From positions 1-40,968 of the forward strand of contig CACWLA010000016.1 of assembly GCA_902761665.1 (NCBI GenBank): 40,968 nucleotides of DNA. The letters run 5' to 3'. The stretch is from an uncultured Lachnospiraceae bacterium. Its GTDB lineage: Bacteria > Bacillota > Clostridia > Lachnospirales > Lachnospiraceae. Both the position numbers and the translations under genes were made by a program. This document shows, piece after piece, positions 16,092-24,299 of this stretch. Positions within the stretch are counted from its first letter, which is position 1, and each line of letters begins with the position of its first letter. Under the pieces are notes generated by a model, which was not told the origin of the DNA, searched no databases, and was given only the letters and a program-made list of their open reading frames with translations.

Positions 16092-16976
16092 ATGAGCAGC
16101 GGGAATCGCTCTGACGATCAGATGAAATGTGTTTACATGGGACCGCCGATGCGGCGGAATCTGCTGGATTCCCTGAAAGAGCGTCTTGCGGGAAAAGAAC
16201 CGAAAAAGCCTTACCCGGGAAGCTTTGCTGATGACAGGGATCCGGATGACGGTCCCGGTACGGCGGACGTTCATGCCGGCCCCGGTCCGGACCCGGAAGA
16301 ACCGGAACTGGAGGAGGTCTACATGGGCCCGCCGCTGACGGAGGAGCCGGAACCGGAGTCTGACCCTGCGCCTGAGCCAGGGACTTTGCCGGCGCCCGCG
16401 CCGGAAGCAAAAGCGCCGTATGATCCCCGGATCACGGAAGGCGTTTACGCGGGACCTCAGATCCCGCCGATGGCGCCGGTCTATGCCGGACCTGAGATGA
16501 TGAACGACCCGCAGAAGGATCCGCGGGTGTGGGATCCGAAAAAACCGCGCATGGAAGCACTTTATGCTGCACCGAGACGGCCCAGTGAGATGATGATGGT
16601 CTACGCGGGACCGGATTATTTCGCAAGGAAAAAGAATGCGCAGGCGCCGATGATGCTGGTCTACGCGGGACCGCCGAACATGCCGTCGATGGCGCAGCAG
16701 ATGGAAGCCGCACGGAGCCAGGCAGAGAATGATCAGAAGGAAGCGCCGGACTACAGGAATGAGACGCAGGACCCCGAGGATCTCGGCAGGCCGACCGTCT
16801 GCCCCGGCTGCGGGGCGTCCGTCCCGCAGAGCCGCTTCTGCAGCGAGTGCGGTGCGCTGCTTCCGGGGACTCTCATGGTGAAATGCTCCTGCTGCGGCAG
16901 TATCGTCAGGAAGGGCAAATTCTGCATGGAGTGCGGCGCGCCCTTCACGCAGGAAGAAAGCAGTCCGGAAGCATGA
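16092..16976 (+). CDS. VYAGP-repeat protein with two C-terminal zinc ribbons; putative peptide precursor
   Basis: I do not recognise this 294-residue protein as a named family. Eight short motifs are spread along an acidic, Pro/Met-rich, probably disordered region: VYMGP (14-18), VHAGP (60-64), VYMGP (76-80), VYAGP (118-122), VYAGP (130-134), LYAAP (157-161), VYAGP (170-174) and VYAGP (190-194). The C-terminus has two zinc ribbons of spacing C-x2-C-x9-C-x2-C: Cys237/240/250/253 and Cys265/268/278/281. There is no signal peptide or membrane segment. It overlaps the next gene, a radical SAM/SPASM enzyme, by four bases (ATGA). Repeated short aromatic motifs beside such an enzyme suggest a multi-core substrate (RiPP-like precursor), with the zinc ribbons as a C-terminal recognition or carrier module. 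That is inference. Alternatively it is a scaffold protein whose gene merely neighbours the enzyme. Confidence 0.82.
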   Translation: MSSGNRSDDQMKCVYMGPPMRRNLLDSLKERLAGKEPKKPYPGSFADDRDPDDGPGTADVHAGPGPDPEEPELEEVYMGPPLTEEPEPESDPAPEPGTLPAPAPEAKAPYDPRITEGVYAGPQIPPMAPVYAGPEMMNDPQKDPRVWDPKKPRMEALYAAPRRPSEMMMVYAGPDYFARKKNAQAPMMLVYAGPPNMPSMAQQMEAARSQAENDQKEAPDYRNETQDPEDLGRPTVCPGCGASVPQSRFCSECGALLPGTLMVKCSCCGSIVRKGKFCMECGAPFTQEESSPEA

Positions 16977-17989
16977 GATTCACCCTGAAAAAAGCGGTCT
17001 GGGAGATCACCCTGGCCTGCTGCTTTTCGTGCAGATACTGTGGCTCGAAGGGCGGTAAGGCACGTGAGGGCGAACTTTCGACCGAAGAATGCTTAAGCGT
17101 CGCAGAGCAGCTCGCGGAACTTGGCTGCCGGAGGGTGTCCCTCATCGGCGGCGAAGTTTTCATGCGCCGCGACTGGAAAGTGATCGCCGGGCGGATGAAC
17201 GAACGCGGCATCCGCGTCAATATCATCACGAACGGTTTTCTCTTCCCGGAGAAACTGATCGCGGACCTTAAGGACGTGAACATCGAATCGGTCTCGGTCT
17301 CGCTGGACGGCCCGAAGGAGGTCCACGACCGCTACCGGCAGGAGGGGAGCTACGACCGCGCCGTCCGCGCGGTCAGGGTGCTGCATGCGGGCGGCATCCC
17401 GGTCAGCGTCATCAGCACGCTGAATGCCGAAAACGCCCCGCTGCTGCCGGAACTTTATGAAACGCTGAAGGACAGCGGCATTTTTGCCTGGCAGCTCCAG
17501 GCCTGTTCCCCCATGGGGAATGCCGCGCTCTCAGGCATCGATTACGCCTTTGATCCGCGGGAAGTCATCCGCTTCGTCGCGGAAAATGCCCCGTCGGCGC
17601 CGTTTGCCCTCGGCATCGCGGACAACATCGGCTATTTCACACCCGAGGAAGGCATGCTCCGCGGGAATCTGAGCGGGCAGGCGGTCTACCGCGGCTGCAG
17701 CGCAGGTCTCGATGCCGTCGGCATCGACAGCGTAGGGAACGTGCGCGGCTGCGAATCGATGTACGACGAACGCTTCAACGAAGGGAACCTTCGCGAGCGG
17801 AGCCTGCGCGAGATCTGGGAAGACCCGGATGCCTTCGCCTACAACCGGAAGTTCACGCCCGAACTTCTTACCGGCGCCTGCGCCGCCTGCGAAATGGGAC
17901 CGTTCTGCGCCGGCGGCTGCCGCTCCTACAACTTTTTCGTCCACGGAAAACTGCACGAAGCCCCGCGCTGCGCCAGGAATATCGTTTAG
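16973..17989 (+). CDS. Radical SAM/SPASM peptide-modifying enzyme
   Basis: The 338-residue protein begins with a radical SAM core. Cys16-x3-Cys20-x2-Cys23 (ACCFSCRYC) binds the catalytic 4Fe-4S cluster, followed by SLIGGEVFMR (the GGE-type SAM motif) and VSVSLDGPKEVHDRYR. The C-terminal SPASM domain has GNVRGCES and CAACEMGPFCAGGC, with a last Cys in PRCARNIV, enough for two auxiliary clusters. SPASM enzymes mostly modify peptides or proteins through C-C, C-S or epimerising chemistry, and some act on small molecules. No N-terminal RRE (peptide-recognition) domain is seen, so recognition may rest on the zinc ribbons of the upstream protein. The ATG overlaps the upstream stop (ATGA), strongly suggesting coupled translation and a shared job. 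No transporter or protease is adjacent. Confidence 0.93.
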   Translation: MRFTLKKAVWEITLACCFSCRYCGSKGGKAREGELSTEECLSVAEQLAELGCRRVSLIGGEVFMRRDWKVIAGRMNERGIRVNIITNGFLFPEKLIADLKDVNIESVSVSLDGPKEVHDRYRQEGSYDRAVRAVRVLHAGGIPVSVISTLNAENAPLLPELYETLKDSGIFAWQLQACSPMGNAALSGIDYAFDPREVIRFVAENAPSAPFALGIADNIGYFTPEEGMLRGNLSGQAVYRGCSAGLDAVGIDSVGNVRGCESMYDERFNEGNLRERSLREIWEDPDAFAYNRKFTPELLTGACAACEMGPFCAGGCRSYNFFVHGKLHEAPRCARNIV

Positions 17990-20639: not shown

Positions 20640-21185
20640 ATGAGTTTATTTGATTTGCTGGGTAAAAAGTCGGAAAAAGAGATCAAGGATCTCTTCAGCG
20701 GCATGGAAAAGAAGATCAAGGACGCAGTGAAAGACGGCTTTAAGGACGGCATCAGGAACGATTCCCCGAAGCCGGCTGCCCCGAAGCCTGTTGAGACCTC
20801 ATACACGGCTGCCGCAGAGCCGGAACAGGAACGTTCCGATGCGCTGTGGGGCGAACTCATGCCGAAGGATGAGAACCAGTTTTCCTTTAAGGGAACGTAT
20901 AAAGAGTATTTTGAGAAAATTTTCCGCGAAGAATTCTCAGAATACAACTTTATGCTGAGCCATCCGAAGTATTATTCTTCTGATATTTACACTTTTTCGC
21001 AGGGCGGGGACAGGAAACTTGTGATCGAACTGATGAAGAAGAGCTGCGAGGCTCAGGCCCTTCGCCGCGAGACGCTTCGGGAAGGCATCGCCTATCTGCG
21101 TTTCTATGTTGACTGCAGCGACCAGGGTTGGTGGAACGCCCGCACCTACGTCGTCGGCAGGATCAGGGAAGCACTGAACAAGTAA
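20640..21185 (+). CDS. Conserved-looking hypothetical protein, possibly nuclease-fold
   Basis: The 181-residue protein has an amphipathic, Lys-rich N-terminus (DLLGKKSEKEIKDLFSGMEK), a Pro/Ala linker (about residues 40-65) and a compact C-terminal domain. That domain carries SSDIYTFSQGGDRKLVIELM and GIAYLRFYVDCSDQGWWNAR. The pattern Asp...(V)IEL-x-K with a following LRFY strand recalls restriction-endonuclease-like (PD-(D/E)XK) proteins of unknown role in clostridia, but I cannot confirm the fold or the catalytic residues. It has its own promoter and a weak terminator-like hairpin after its stop. It lies immediately upstream of the reverse transcriptase RNA, so a shared function is possible but not shown. 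Confidence 0.75.
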   Translation: MSLFDLLGKKSEKEIKDLFSGMEKKIKDAVKDGFKDGIRNDSPKPAAPKPVETSYTAAAEPEQERSDALWGELMPKDENQFSFKGTYKEYFEKIFREEFSEYNFMLSHPKYYSSDIYTFSQGGDRKLVIELMKKSCEAQALRRETLREGIAYLRFYVDCSDQGWWNARTYVVGRIREALNK

Positions 21186-21192
21186 CAAAATC

Positions 21193-21212
21193 CGGGGCCT
21201 TGGCCCTGTTTT
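21193..21212 (+). terminator. Weak terminator-like hairpin after the 181-residue gene
   Basis: CGGGG (21193-21197) can pair with CCCTG (21204-21208), including a G-U pair, around a six-base CCTTGG loop, followed by four T residues. It may separate the upstream gene from the structured RNA that begins at 21213. Confidence 0.4.
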
Positions 21213-21348
21213 GGGCAGAAAGAGAACGCCTGGCGCCTGCGGCGGACCCGGCACGGCTTATGATGGACTTCGCAGGCAGCCAAGCCGTGTACGGTCTGGT
21301 ACACCCCGGAATCCTCCGGGCTTTAATGCTTTCTCTTTCTGCTTTTTT
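21213..21348 (+). ncRNA. Putative structured RNA associated with the reverse transcriptase
   Basis: A perfect 12-bp inverted repeat, GCAGAAAGAGAA (21215-21226) and TTCTCTTTCTGC (21331-21342), is extended outward by two G-U pairs and inward by GC/GC after one mismatch. It encloses about 104 bases that fold further. Stem A pairs 21235-21241 with 21271-21277 (7 bp). Stem B pairs 21248-21259 with 21282-21294 (12 bp, one bulge) and interlocks with stem A as a pseudoknot or alternative. Stem C pairs 21305-21310 with 21315-21320 (6 bp, ATCC loop). Six T residues (21343-21348) follow. Another stem (21361-21367/21378-21384) lies before the reverse transcriptase ribosome site. A closed structured RNA just upstream of a stand-alone reverse transcriptase matches the layout of retron msr-msd or DRT2-type RNAs. 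The role is inferred. Confidence 0.62.
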
Positions 21349-21400
21349 CGTACGCAAAAACCGGCGGAGCCCCTGCGCTGCCGGGTAAAGGAGGGGCGTC

Positions 21401-22678
21401 ATGTCCCTTTTGGAAAAACTGTCCGATCCGGCCGTCTGGGAGGCCTTTTACGCTTACAGGACCTCCCTGGCAGTCCCGCGGGCGGACACGGACGAATTAC
21501 GGCAGTTCATCGATGAACAGGCCTGGCTTCCGGTCACGCAGCTGATCGCGGAGGGCAGGCGCTTTCCGCTGCCGCGCCGCGCGGTCATCAGCAAGATGCA
21601 TTCGCAGAAAAAACGCGTCGTCTACATCTATCCGCCGGCGGAGAACACGGTGATGAAGCTCCTGACCTGGCTGCTTCTGCGGAAATACGACGGCCTCTTT
21701 TCAGACGGCCTGTATTCCTTCCGCCCGGGCCGCTCGGCAAAGGACGCGATAAGGCGCCTGACCCGGATGAAGAACGTCGGCTCCACCTGGGCGTACAAGG
21801 CCGACATCCACAACTATTTCAACGCCGTACCGGTCGGACGCCTTGTCCCAAAACTGGAAAAAGTCCTTTCGGACGATCCCGAACTTTTCCGTTTCCTGCG
21901 GCGGCTTCTGGAGGAACCGGAGGTCCTGGAAAACGGACAGCCGGTCACGGACGAAAAAGGCATCATGGCCGGAACGCCCGTCGCCTCCTTCTACGCGAAT
22001 CTTTATCTCAGGGAGTTGGACGAAGGCTTCGCGCAGGACGGCATCCCCTATGCCCGCTACTCGGACGATATCATCGTCTTTGCGGACAGCCGGGAGGAGG
22101 TGCTCCGCCGCGCGGAGCGGATCCGCTCCTTCCTTGCGGAAGCGGGGCTTGAGATCAATCCCGACAAGGAGGATCTTTTCGCCCCCGAAGAAGGCTGGAA
22201 CTTCCTCGGTTTTTCGTACCGGAAAGGAACGGTCGACATTGCGCCGGCGACCGTCGCGAAACTGAAGGCCAAGATGCGCCGCAAGACCCGCGCGCTCGAA
22301 CGCTGGTGCCGCCGGAACGGCCATGAAGGAGAGAAGGCGGCGAAAGCTTTCATCCGCATTTTTAAGAGCAAACTGCTGGAAACTGCCGGGGACAGCGACC
22401 TCACCTGGAGCGCCTGGTTCTTTTCCGTCATCAATACGACGGAGAGCCTGGAGGCAATCGACGCTTATGCGCTTGACTGCATCCGGTATCTCGTGACCGG
22501 AAAGCGCACGAAAGCGCGCTTCAACCTGCGCTATGAAACCATTAAGGAGATGGGCTGGCAGAACCTCGTCCACGCCTACTACGATTACAGGGCGGAAGCC
22601 GCAGCCGGCAATGCTGCCGAAAAGGATGAAGCCCCGGCTGACACGGGAAAGGAGAACGACCGTGAAACAGATATTTGA
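21401..22678 (+). CDS. Stand-alone reverse transcriptase, unassigned class
   Basis: The 425-residue protein has the reverse transcriptase palm. The first catalytic Asp is D135 in YKADIHNYF. The B-motif GIMAGTPVASFYANLYL is at about 187-203. The catalytic YSDD is at residues 220-223, LEINPDKEDLF at 250-260 and NFLGFSYRKG at 267-276. There is no group II intron maturase X/DNA-binding or HNH endonuclease domain. Instead a helical C-terminus of about 120 residues contains SVINTTESLEAIDAYALDCI and VTGKRTKARFNLRYET, and the last 30 residues look disordered. AAAGGAGGGG lies just before the ATG. The upstream 215 bases hold a compact RNA fold. Retron, DRT/UG-type antiphage and other domesticated reverse transcriptases share this size; which one it is cannot be settled by eye. 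The last 17 bases overlap the next frame. Confidence 0.93.
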   Translation: MSLLEKLSDPAVWEAFYAYRTSLAVPRADTDELRQFIDEQAWLPVTQLIAEGRRFPLPRRAVISKMHSQKKRVVYIYPPAENTVMKLLTWLLLRKYDGLFSDGLYSFRPGRSAKDAIRRLTRMKNVGSTWAYKADIHNYFNAVPVGRLVPKLEKVLSDDPELFRFLRRLLEEPEVLENGQPVTDEKGIMAGTPVASFYANLYLRELDEGFAQDGIPYARYSDDIIVFADSREEVLRRAERIRSFLAEAGLEINPDKEDLFAPEEGWNFLGFSYRKGTVDIAPATVAKLKAKMRRKTRALERWCRRNGHEGEKAAKAFIRIFKSKLLETAGDSDLTWSAWFFSVINTTESLEAIDAYALDCIRYLVTGKRTKARFNLRYETIKEMGWQNLVHAYYDYRAEAAAGNAAEKDEAPADTGKENDRETDI

Positions 22679-23204: not shown

Positions 23205-24299
23205 ATGAGCATGCTCTGCTATCAGTGCGGAAGCACGCTCGGGGCAGGAAAATTCTGCCTGCGCTGCGGCGCTGACGTACAGCAGTACCGGAAGATCGTC
23301 CGCCTGGCTAACCGCTATTACAACGAGGGGCTGTCCCGGGCGAAAGTACGCGACCTGTCCGGGGCTGCGGAGGCACTCGGACGCTGCCTCAGTATCGACA
23401 AAAGGAACATTCCCGCCAGAAATCTGCTGGGGCTCGTGCTTTACGAGATGGGAGAGACGATCGACGCGCTTGCGGAATGGGTCGTCAGCACCAACTACCT
23501 GCCTCACGACAATCCGGCGGAGTCTTATGTTGCGTCTCTGCAGAAAAACCGTACTGAGCTCGATACCGCGAGTCAGGCCATTCATAAGTTCAACGTAGCG
23601 CTTGATCACGCGCGGGCCGGCAATACCGACCTTGCCATGATCCAGCTGCAGTGGGTGTTGGACAAGCATCCGAAGATGATCAAGGCCCACGAACTGATGG
23701 CCTTGCTCCTGATCTGGGAAGGGGAAAACGGCAAGGCGAAGAAGGAACTCGACGCGGCGCTGAAGATCGACCGCGGGAGCCTCTTCAGCAAGCAGCTCCG
23801 GCAGGAACTGGAAAGCGCGGCGAAGTCGGAAAGCAGCCGGAACAATGCGAGGTCCGGCGCAGGCTTGAAGAGCATGGCCGACAGTGCCGCTGAAAATGCG
23901 GAACGCGTGGGCAAGGCCCTGCAGGGGCGGCCCGGGAAACTGCTGAAGTTCGTGCTTGGGACCGTCCTTCTGGTCTGCGCCATATGGGGCATCCTGATCC
24001 CGACCGTATCCAGAAACCGTCAGGCAGCGGTCGACAGGGCCGTGGCGGTCTACGCAGAGCAGATGGAATCGCTCCGGCTGCGGCTTGCCGCCAGCGAGGA
24101 CCGGAACGAGGCGTATGAGATCCTGCTGCAGCTCAGCCAGCTTGACATTGAGGTGGCTGAGGACCGCGAGAAGATCGAGGAACTGTTCGGACAGCTGAGC
24201 ATCACGAGCGCCGACACGGATCTGTATAAAACACTTTACGACGCCTGGCGTCTGGCGCTCATGCAGAGCGGCCTGGATGAGCCGGATGAGGGACCGTGA
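23205..24299 (+). CDS. Zinc-ribbon, TPR-repeat, single-span membrane protein
   Basis: The 364-residue protein opens with a zinc ribbon (Cys5/8/18/21, [17 protein letters not shown]), the same C-x2-C-x9-C-x2-C spacing as in the VYAGP-repeat protein. Residues about 30-215 are helical TPR-like repeats ([60 protein letters not shown]). A basic linker and one transmembrane helix (about 246-266, [19 protein letters not shown]) follow. An extracytoplasmic or second coiled region rich in Glu/Arg completes it. The zinc ribbon and TPR part should be cytoplasmic. Proteins like this in clostridia have no assigned function. It lies 22 bases upstream of rmlA, so a role in envelope or polysaccharide assembly is possible. 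Confidence 0.85.

Follow-up and report, generated by a model that had tools for sequence, protein, structure and literature searches.

Here, we describe a putative protein-editing system in an uncultured Lachnospiraceae bacterium, encoded by two overlapping genes on contig CACWLA010000016.1 of assembly GCA_902761665.1 (positions 1 to 40,968; this whole stretch of 40,968 nucleotides is termed the window below). The first gene encodes a protein with repeated V-Y-(A/M)-G-P motifs and a double zinc ribbon, and the second a radical S-adenosylmethionine (SAM)/SPASM enzyme. Sequence comparison with relatives indicates that the repeat protein is very likely the substrate of the adjoining enzyme, and that the motif's tyrosine is probably the residue modified; by analogy with the published enzyme PlpX, we somewhat favor excision of tyramine at these tyrosines as the reaction. 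Our best reading is that the pair represents a branch of the splicease group that is new, lacks a leader and acts at multiple sites; with closest relatives of the enzyme that appear to remove tyrosine-derived fragments from protein backbones, it may represent a new bacterial way of editing the cell's own proteins. A preliminary description of this DNA had noted eight VY[AM]GP-like motifs, two of them degenerate, two zinc ribbons, and an ATGA overlap between the genes, all of which the sequence confirms:

16092..16976, + strand: VYxGP-repeat/zinc-ribbon protein, putative multi-site substrate (294 aa, ATG start; orthologues in genomes G013, G014, G008 and G005)
16131..16145, +: motif 1, VYMGP, aa 14-18 (from sequence)
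16206..16226, +: second conserved motif, KPYPGSF (YPx[NRS] type), candidate docking element
16269..16283, +: motif 2, VHAGP, aa 60-64; the natural His for Tyr is a built-in negative control
16317..16331, +: motif 3, VYMGP, aa 76-80 (from sequence)
16443..16457, +: motif 4, VYAGP, aa 118-122 (from sequence)
16479..16493, +: motif 5, VYAGP, aa 130-134 (from sequence)
16560..16574, +: motif 6, LYAAP, aa 157-161 (from sequence)
16599..16613, +: motif 7, VYAGP, aa 170-174 (from sequence)
16659..16673, +: motif 8, VYAGP, aa 190-194 (from sequence)
16797..16859, +: zinc ribbon 1, aa 236-256 (Pfam match and spacing)
16884..16940, +: zinc ribbon 2, about aa 265-283 (sequence and Pfam match)
16973..16976, +: ATGA overlap, TGA stop of the repeat protein and ATG start of the enzyme
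16973..17989, +: radical SAM/SPASM enzyme, 338 aa, splicease-type clade
17018..17041, +: radical SAM CxxxCxxC (C16, C20, C23), Cys in 82/82 of the family alignment
17504..17506, +: Cys178, in 82/82 VYxGP-clade enzymes
17696..17890, +: SPASM domain, aa 242-306 (Pfam match)

The repeat protein and the enzyme are encoded together

A contig scan for relatives of the enzyme confirmed at least 415, of which the best 80 were kept for partner analysis; their titles are mainly Lachnospiraceae, Clostridia or Clostridiales, and many of the samples are rumen or faecal. Beside 79 of these 80 enzymes lies an open reading frame (ORF) with the motif [VIALMT]Yx[GAP]P, in the strict form VYx[GAP]P in 76 of the 79. 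This partner lies upstream of the enzyme in 77 cases (at offsets of -11 to 150 nt) and downstream in two (L130 and L132), and carries from one to nine motif copies; only at L084 was no motif partner found beside the enzyme. Both the enzyme-substrate pairing and the variation in copy number that the preliminary description had put forward are borne out by these loci. Since the 79 partners were picked by the presence of the motif, an unselected count of nearest genes is the fairer test: a crude gene caller found a same-strand upstream gene at 60 loci, and 45 of these 60 genes carry the strict motif, as does one of 44 nearest downstream genes. Among the other genes at the same loci (n=765), 22 have the loose motif and four the strict one. 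One of these four, at L123, is a second VYAGP protein, so that two different VYAGP proteins stand in tandem ahead of one enzyme; the Dehalococcoidales label of this metagenome-assembled genome is doubtful.

Eighteen further loci of the VYxGP clade (L140-L144 and L182-L194, several of which repeat loci among the best 80) yielded a motif partner in 16. None was found nearby at L192, and none in the printed part of L191, whose upstream gene is the same as that of L130; the substrates of the L084 and L192 enzymes may lie elsewhere in the genome. At L194 (genome G1144), an enzyme frame with an in-frame TGA, reflecting decay or an assembly error, lies beside a small VYAAP zinc-ribbon-like ORF. Among related genomes, the enzyme is present in 7 of 61, the window's own counted (E <= 1e-40): in five others of the same genus (G008, G009, G010, G013 and G014) it adjoins a VYAGP protein, and in G032, from another genus, it adjoins a kinase-FHA protein with VYAAP between its two domains. 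The G032 enzyme lies in a locus (L048, 3072-10394) shared by this protein, a 687-aa zinc-ribbon protein and two proteins of 300-357 aa of unknown kind. G005 has a VYAGP protein with no detected enzyme, the gene lying at a contig edge, where the enzyme would come next.

Beyond the pair itself, we saw no conserved third gene among the nearest neighbors. Nearest genes were found downstream of the pair at 77 loci and upstream at 70, of which 71 and 66 were used after ten, most of them ORFs of extreme length, short or long, were dropped by hand; at most two of the 71 and three of the 66 share a Pfam family. This sample contains no recurring peptide exporter or protease (BPD_transp_1 occurs in 2/71 and 2/66), and no recurring family resembling a recognition element (RRE) of ribosomally synthesized and post-translationally modified peptides (RiPPs), although an RRE gene that is tiny or lacks annotation could escape such a count. 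The earlier statement that no transporter or protease is adjacent thus holds, and extends to the family, as far as peptide exporters and proteases go, but the next two downstream genes in the window encode CNNM/CorC-type membrane proteins, which belong to an ion transport family. With neither a protease nor a peptide exporter adjacent, the window locus lacks a mark of the RiPPs with cleaved leader and exporter. No NCBIfam leader model, of either the Nif11 or the nitrile-hydratase type, matches the window's repeat protein.

The motif is conserved on varied carriers

Six of the eight motifs in the 294-residue window protein are strict VYxGP, the others being one VHAGP and one LYAAP, and shuffling its sequence 20,000 times gave a mean of 0.006 strict motifs and a maximum of two, which rejects a chance origin of the repeats. 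VYxGP occurs 220 times in the 79 partners versus a shuffle mean of 0.26 and maximum of 3 (200 shuffles). Where three of the residues V, Y, G and P are kept, the replaced residue is Val 35 times, Gly 31, Tyr 6 and Pro 2; the rarity of tyrosine replacement supports the earlier proposal that this residue is the likeliest target. The residue after Tyr in 292 family sites is Ala in 247, Met in 14, Gly in 11 and Asn in 8, and the next one is Gly in 254. Flanks tend to have Met at -3 and, after Pro, Glu, Pro, Gly or Asp followed by Met, Phe or Tyr. Conservation of the repeats in relatives, on which the preliminary description had made its proposal depend, is evident in aligned same-genus orthologues: motif residues hardly change (35/35 identical in G014, 34/35 in G013, 25/25 in G005 and 24/28 in G008), while spacers outside the ribbons drift (147/176, 119/188, 80/122 and 61/140, respectively), and entire motif copies are gained and lost between relatives. 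Motif variants (GP versus AP or PP) cluster weakly on the enzyme tree, with 9 changes versus about 12.2 when shuffled (equally low in 4/500 shuffles for G and 1/500 for AP); this clustering is indistinguishable from joint inheritance, and we rejected co-evolution of motif variant and enzyme clade.

A degenerate nucleotide pattern encoding VYxGP (x restricted to codons RYN) matches the 2.1 Mb assembly nine times, six of them inside the repeat gene; a reversed control pattern matches five times. Of the three matches elsewhere, ribosomal protein L13 accounts for one, at its C-terminus, and frames of 704 and 55 residues for one each. L13 (L011, 856-1557) ends in VYAGPDHPHQAQKPEELKF and is an unlinked housekeeping protein with the repeat's five letters, showing that the string by itself proves nothing.

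The window protein's double zinc ribbon (residues 236-282), whose spacing CPGCG...CSECG / CSCCG...CMECG can be read directly in the sequence, matches Pfam Zn_ribbon_3 at 25.5 bits and DZR at 26.0 bits, both slightly below their curated thresholds (27 and 27.3). The preliminary description had cast these ribbons as a C-terminal recognition module, a role that we reject: 16 of the 79 partners lack any CxxC (two of these, L097 and L111, end at contig ends), and along the enzyme tree CxxC switches between present and absent 12 times (shuffled mean 14.8), with at least 9 switches forced by starred branches. The ribbons are therefore dispensable, and of the pattern foreseen for homologues, variable copies beside a constantly linked enzyme hold while constant ribbons do not. 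Our best candidate for a second element that the enzyme could use for docking is instead YPx[NRS], which occurs outside the main motif 67 times in the 79 partners versus a shuffle mean of 3.1 and maximum of 9. The raw count of YP dipeptides (79, in 73 of the 79 partners) is not above shuffle (mean 62, maximum 84); with motif residues set aside it is 78 versus a mean of 22.9. Beyond the zinc ribbon, carriers of the motif include an FHA protein (L125), the kinase-FHA protein of G032, an FMN reductase (L128) and an open frame continuing from an rRNA dimethylase (L060). Such variety suggests that cytosolic proteins bear the motif stretch as an added module open to modification.

The enzyme groups with TIGR04103 and GDL maturases

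The window enzyme matches Pfam Radical_SAM (2.1e-25) and SPASM (2.5e-7), and its CxxxCxxC motif and SPASM cysteine set are those of radical SAM/SPASM maturases in the broad sense. C16, C20, C23, C242, C260, C303, C306, C312 and C316 are kept in all 82 members of the family alignment, and C333 in 81. Cys178 is private to the VYxGP clade, being absent from ten sister-clade enzymes, three of TIGR04103/GDL type and 13 other SPASM proteins, although the segment in which it lies, WQLQACSPMGN, is otherwise common to relatives; Cys17, Cys40 and Cys52 are nearly private to VYxGP enzymes. An AlphaFold model (pLDDT 87) has a SPASM fold whose nearest Foldseek matches are PqqE (6c8v), SkfB (6efn) and SuiB (5v1s) at TM-scores of 0.66-0.74, but these share 16-22% identity with it and perform other chemistries; SkfB, the nearest solved relative by sequence, is not close (99 bits).

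Profile searches of 398 phylum-level, 391 class-level and 397 own-family genomes separated two score classes, VYxGP-type enzymes at 474 bits or more and a sister clade at 254-319 bits. In the own-family sample, 14 genomes (the window's included) have the VYxGP type and six the sister type, one having both, for 19 in total. A sister-profile search of one class (that of genome G384) matched 4 of 82 genomes; a TIGR04103 search of another (that of G211) matched 0 of 113, but no control matched either. In a SPASM survey of ten genomes, in which 30 of 50 matches were turned into loci, the VYxGP profile scored ten sisters at 266-307 bits and every other recovered SPASM ORF at 149 or less. Named reference enzymes, taken from plasmids, divide likewise: Agathobacter scores 306, Aureibacter 278, Nostoc TIGR04103 265 and Azospirillum GDL 257 bits, and TIGR04133 140, MftC 134, TIGR04053 104, NirJ 95 and ACGX 87 bits. 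In a reference tree with 16 VYxGP-clade enzymes, these enzymes group with TIGR04103 ('nif11-class maturase 3') and GDL (TIGR03913) maturases at support 96/88, and with the sisters added at 95/87, leaving other SPASM families outside; an earlier tree without named references joined the VYxGP and sister enzymes at 97/91. As several outgroup branches are long, our placement draws on both the tree and the gap in scores. Together they support, at the level of sequence, a single clade of VYxGP enzymes, TIGR04103 and GDL maturases, and the sister clade, whose members are mostly longer, with a C-terminal tetratricopeptide repeat (TPR) region (by Pfam in L136 and L146, aligned in seven, none in L197 and L207).

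All 82 family members match both TIGR04103, which we take to be the same family as IPR026482, and TIGR03913 at <=1e-40; other families matched are heme b synthase (52 of 82), TIGR04133 (46), WgkB (31), StsB (15) and mycofactocin (10). We tested the TIGR04103 score, an X-Y-G site and a leader as marks of that family and found none of them in the window pair, and accordingly claim no TIGR04103 membership; splicease-type maturation would here be carried out by a new branch outside TIGR04103 as these marks define it. What the preliminary description called a candidate new system is thus a narrower novelty, as the enzyme falls in the TIGR04103/GDL clade, where neighbor peptides also have Tyr followed by G, A or M.

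Tyrosine sites beside related enzymes

We read by eye the neighbors of 20 distinct sister loci (L202 repeats L136). X-Y-G occurs in a neighbor gene at ten: on precursors with NHLP-type leaders at L137, L138 and L205 (tested in the first two, by eye in L205), on short peptides at L145 and L146 ('PIRPLYGIEPPVRPLYGIEP'; L146 has PIRPLYGIEP), and as repeats at L147, L151, L196, L198 and L201. Five more have X-Y-A, namely KYAAP at L136 and L203, MYAV at L204, whose leader resembles that of L137, AYAV at L195 and a single PYAAP at L197. Beside the reference enzymes, a small frame upstream of the Agathobacter plasmid enzyme ends ...PVMYGTGVRM, and the Nostoc TIGR04103 enzyme follows an annotated Nif11-type peptide ending SIALYGLPPELF (site LYGLP). 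All six DUF1843 peptides beside the GDL-type Azospirillum and Aureibacter enzymes have such sites (LYGGA, PYGVA, MYMAT, LYAAG, MYAAS and PYGAG), so that Ala or Met after Tyr is not unique to VYxGP. As far as examined, Tyr followed by G, A or M appears from these sequences to be the common thread of the clade. The relevant neighbor genes are:

L208 1546-2246 and L213 1662-2375: DUF1843 peptides beside GDL-type maturases, with Tyr-G/A/M near the N-terminus
L136 2530-3480 (-), L203 541-1485 and L147 356-1303: chagasin (I42) proteins with long KYAAP/KYGxP tails beside sister SPASM enzymes

Pfam chagasin I42 is significant for L136, L147 and L203, and not for L151 or L196; tail sites on chagasin-domain proteins read KYGVP or KYAAP. 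Spliceotide products have been termed protease inhibitors (PMC11117315), which would make it plausible for a peptidase-inhibitor domain to carry a ketoamide tail; the chagasin-tail proteins are candidate ketoamide-armed protease inhibitors.

A splicease-type model and its alternatives

We propose that the two genes would form a self-contained enzyme/substrate pair, in which the enzyme may dock through the YPx[NRS] motif and would act on the Tyr of each V-Y-(A/M)-G-P site of its partner. By the radical reaction published for PlpX, it would excise tyramine (C8H9NO, about 135.07 Da) and leave a backbone ketoamide, mostly a valine-derived alpha-keto-beta-amino acid. Up to seven sites in the window protein could be edited, the eighth motif, VHAGP, having no Tyr. 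The product would probably remain in the cytosol; as for its role, our leading guess is that it would trap proteases or other nucleophiles by reversible covalent bonding. In a more speculative extension, which we consider doubtful, one lineage of Clostridia from gut and rumen would edit the backbones of its own cytosolic zinc-ribbon, FHA and kinase-FHA proteins through a stand-alone splicease-type enzyme reading V-Y-A-G-P in place of X-Y-G, making intracellular ketoamide traps or switches with up to nine sites each and no secreted peptide.

Among known systems, PlpXY of Pleurocapsa is the model for this reaction. It shares with our pair a radical SAM/SPASM enzyme of TIGR04103's clade and a Tyr-centered internal site; in the VYxGP systems, however, the Tyr is followed by Ala or Met and then Gly-Pro, one to nine sites lie on a long leaderless protein, and no PlpY-like gene was found beside the pair. 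PlpX is assigned to IPR026482 (PMC11002830). According to PMC10533398, the natural PlpXY sites are MYG and LYG, and PlpA2-derived tags read PIRPLYGLPI or, engineered, PIRPGYGLPI, to which the sister-clade PIRPLYGIEP of L146 is close; Gly after Tyr in 11 of the 292 family motifs likewise counts for a splicease-type reaction. The GDL maturases with their DUF1843 peptides (TIGR03913) are, together with TIGR04103, the nearest named relatives in the tree, but their peptides are 56-64 aa with one site near the N-terminus, their enzymes are longer, and against the TIGR03913 cut-off of 592 bits Azospirillum scores 764, Aureibacter 535 and the window enzyme 220. The chagasin-tail system resembles ours in that a gene beside the enzyme encodes a folded domain whose tail repeats Tyr-x-x-Pro (KYAAP in L136 and L203), and differs in its peptidase-inhibitor carrier and in an enzyme with C-terminal TPR (L136, L146).

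Several observations weigh against a splicease-type reaction in the VYxGP pair. Gly follows Tyr in none of the eight motifs of the window protein, whereas the published PlpX site is X-Y-G, and the window enzyme scores 255.1 bits on TIGR04103, for which the curated cut-off is 725 and the Nostoc control reaches 853. Its invariant, private Cys178 and near-private Cys17, Cys40 and Cys52 suggest that its chemistry may differ from that of PlpX. Context beyond the motif matters even for PlpXY, as two GYG inserts in FtsZ were spliced and the LYG inserts tried there were not accepted (PMC10533398). Given the long outgroup branches, the clade supports should be trusted less than their values imply, and the comparison with the sister clade rests on an activity that is itself inferred, on sites read by eye, and on comparisons from which PlpX is absent; at five of the 20 sister loci (L148, L149, L150, L199 and L200), no X-Y-G/A site was seen within 1.5 kb. 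Nor did we find an RRE-like partner, a Nif11 or NHLP leader or any recurring neighbor for the pair, and two enzymes, those of L084 and L192, have no motif neighbor.

That the tyrosine is modified by other chemistry, whether a mycofactocin-like Val-Tyr C-C bond, a cross-link within Y-A-G-P, or oxidation without excision, is unlikely but deserves weight, as the private Cys178 and the Ala or Met after Tyr separate VYxGP enzymes from X-Y-G enzymes. A three-residue cyclophane requires a beta-carbon at the third residue of its aromatic-x-x motif (Tyr+2); with Gly there in 254 of 292 sites, we rejected membership of the triceptides. Mycofactocin MftC is likewise a SPASM enzyme that acts on a Val-Tyr pair, MftA ending ...GVY (chemistry in PMC8326336). 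It nevertheless works with an MftB partner on a C-terminal Tyr, whereas the VY sites of the window protein are internal (residues 14-194 of 294), and it lies outside the clade (134 vs 257-307 bits); as the window enzyme also scores only 122.6 bits on mycofact_rSAM, for which the cut-off is 265, we rejected mycofactocin membership.

It is improbable that VYxGP is instead a docking motif and that another residue, such as the YPxN Tyr or Pro or a zinc-ribbon Cys, is modified. The excess of YPx[NRS] over shuffles would fit such an arrangement, but zinc-ribbon cysteines are missing from one partner in five or so (16/79), and YP averages roughly one copy per partner, against as many as nine for the amplified VYxGP-type motif, a pattern expected of a site and not of a handle. 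We give very little credence to the idea that the motif binds a third partner and the adjoining enzyme is merely co-regulated: the L084 and L192 enzymes and the VYAGP at the end of L13, unlinked to the enzyme, could be read in this way, but adjacency at 79 of 80 loci and a constant enzyme and motif with no recurring third gene argue otherwise. With its high content of P, E, D and M, the window protein could be taken for an unremarkable low-complexity, Pro-rich linker with repeats arisen by chance or drift; the shuffles, the conservation of the motif and its linkage to the enzyme refute this, and we regard its probability as negligible.

We found no description of VYxGP systems in the open-access literature, although Scott et al. 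(2022, Chem) could already list some. In the same literature the string VYAGP turned up only in an unrelated context, and we found nothing linking chagasin with radical SAM enzymes, nothing on radical SAM/SPASM and zinc-ribbon RiPPs or on radical SAM RiPP precursors of rumen Lachnospiraceae, and nothing combining ketoamide, radical SAM, precursor and tyrosine. If the splicease-type model is true, gut and rumen bacteria would commonly edit the backbones of intracellular proteins of ordinary size at multiple sites and without a leader, and the splice site would be broader (X-Y-G/A/M) than the published X-Y-G, offering new labelling sites in mid-protein. The model would also bring the TIGR04103, GDL/DUF1843 and chagasin-tail systems together through a shared motif, and would connect protease-inhibitor domains with ketoamide chemistry.

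Genomic surroundings

Upstream of the pair in the window lie a PTA/PTB gene and an H+-pyrophosphatase gene. Beginning three genes downstream of the enzyme is a reverse transcriptase pair (20640-22678) that is likely a DRT-type anti-phage defence: the reverse transcriptase matches PADLOC RT_UG26 at 561 bits, and the protein encoded directly before it matches RTasCOG2852 at 147 bits. Further along (23205-24299), a zinc-ribbon and TPR protein has a ribbon with weak similarity (E 0.04, 43% across 28 residues) to ribbon 2 of the VYAGP protein.

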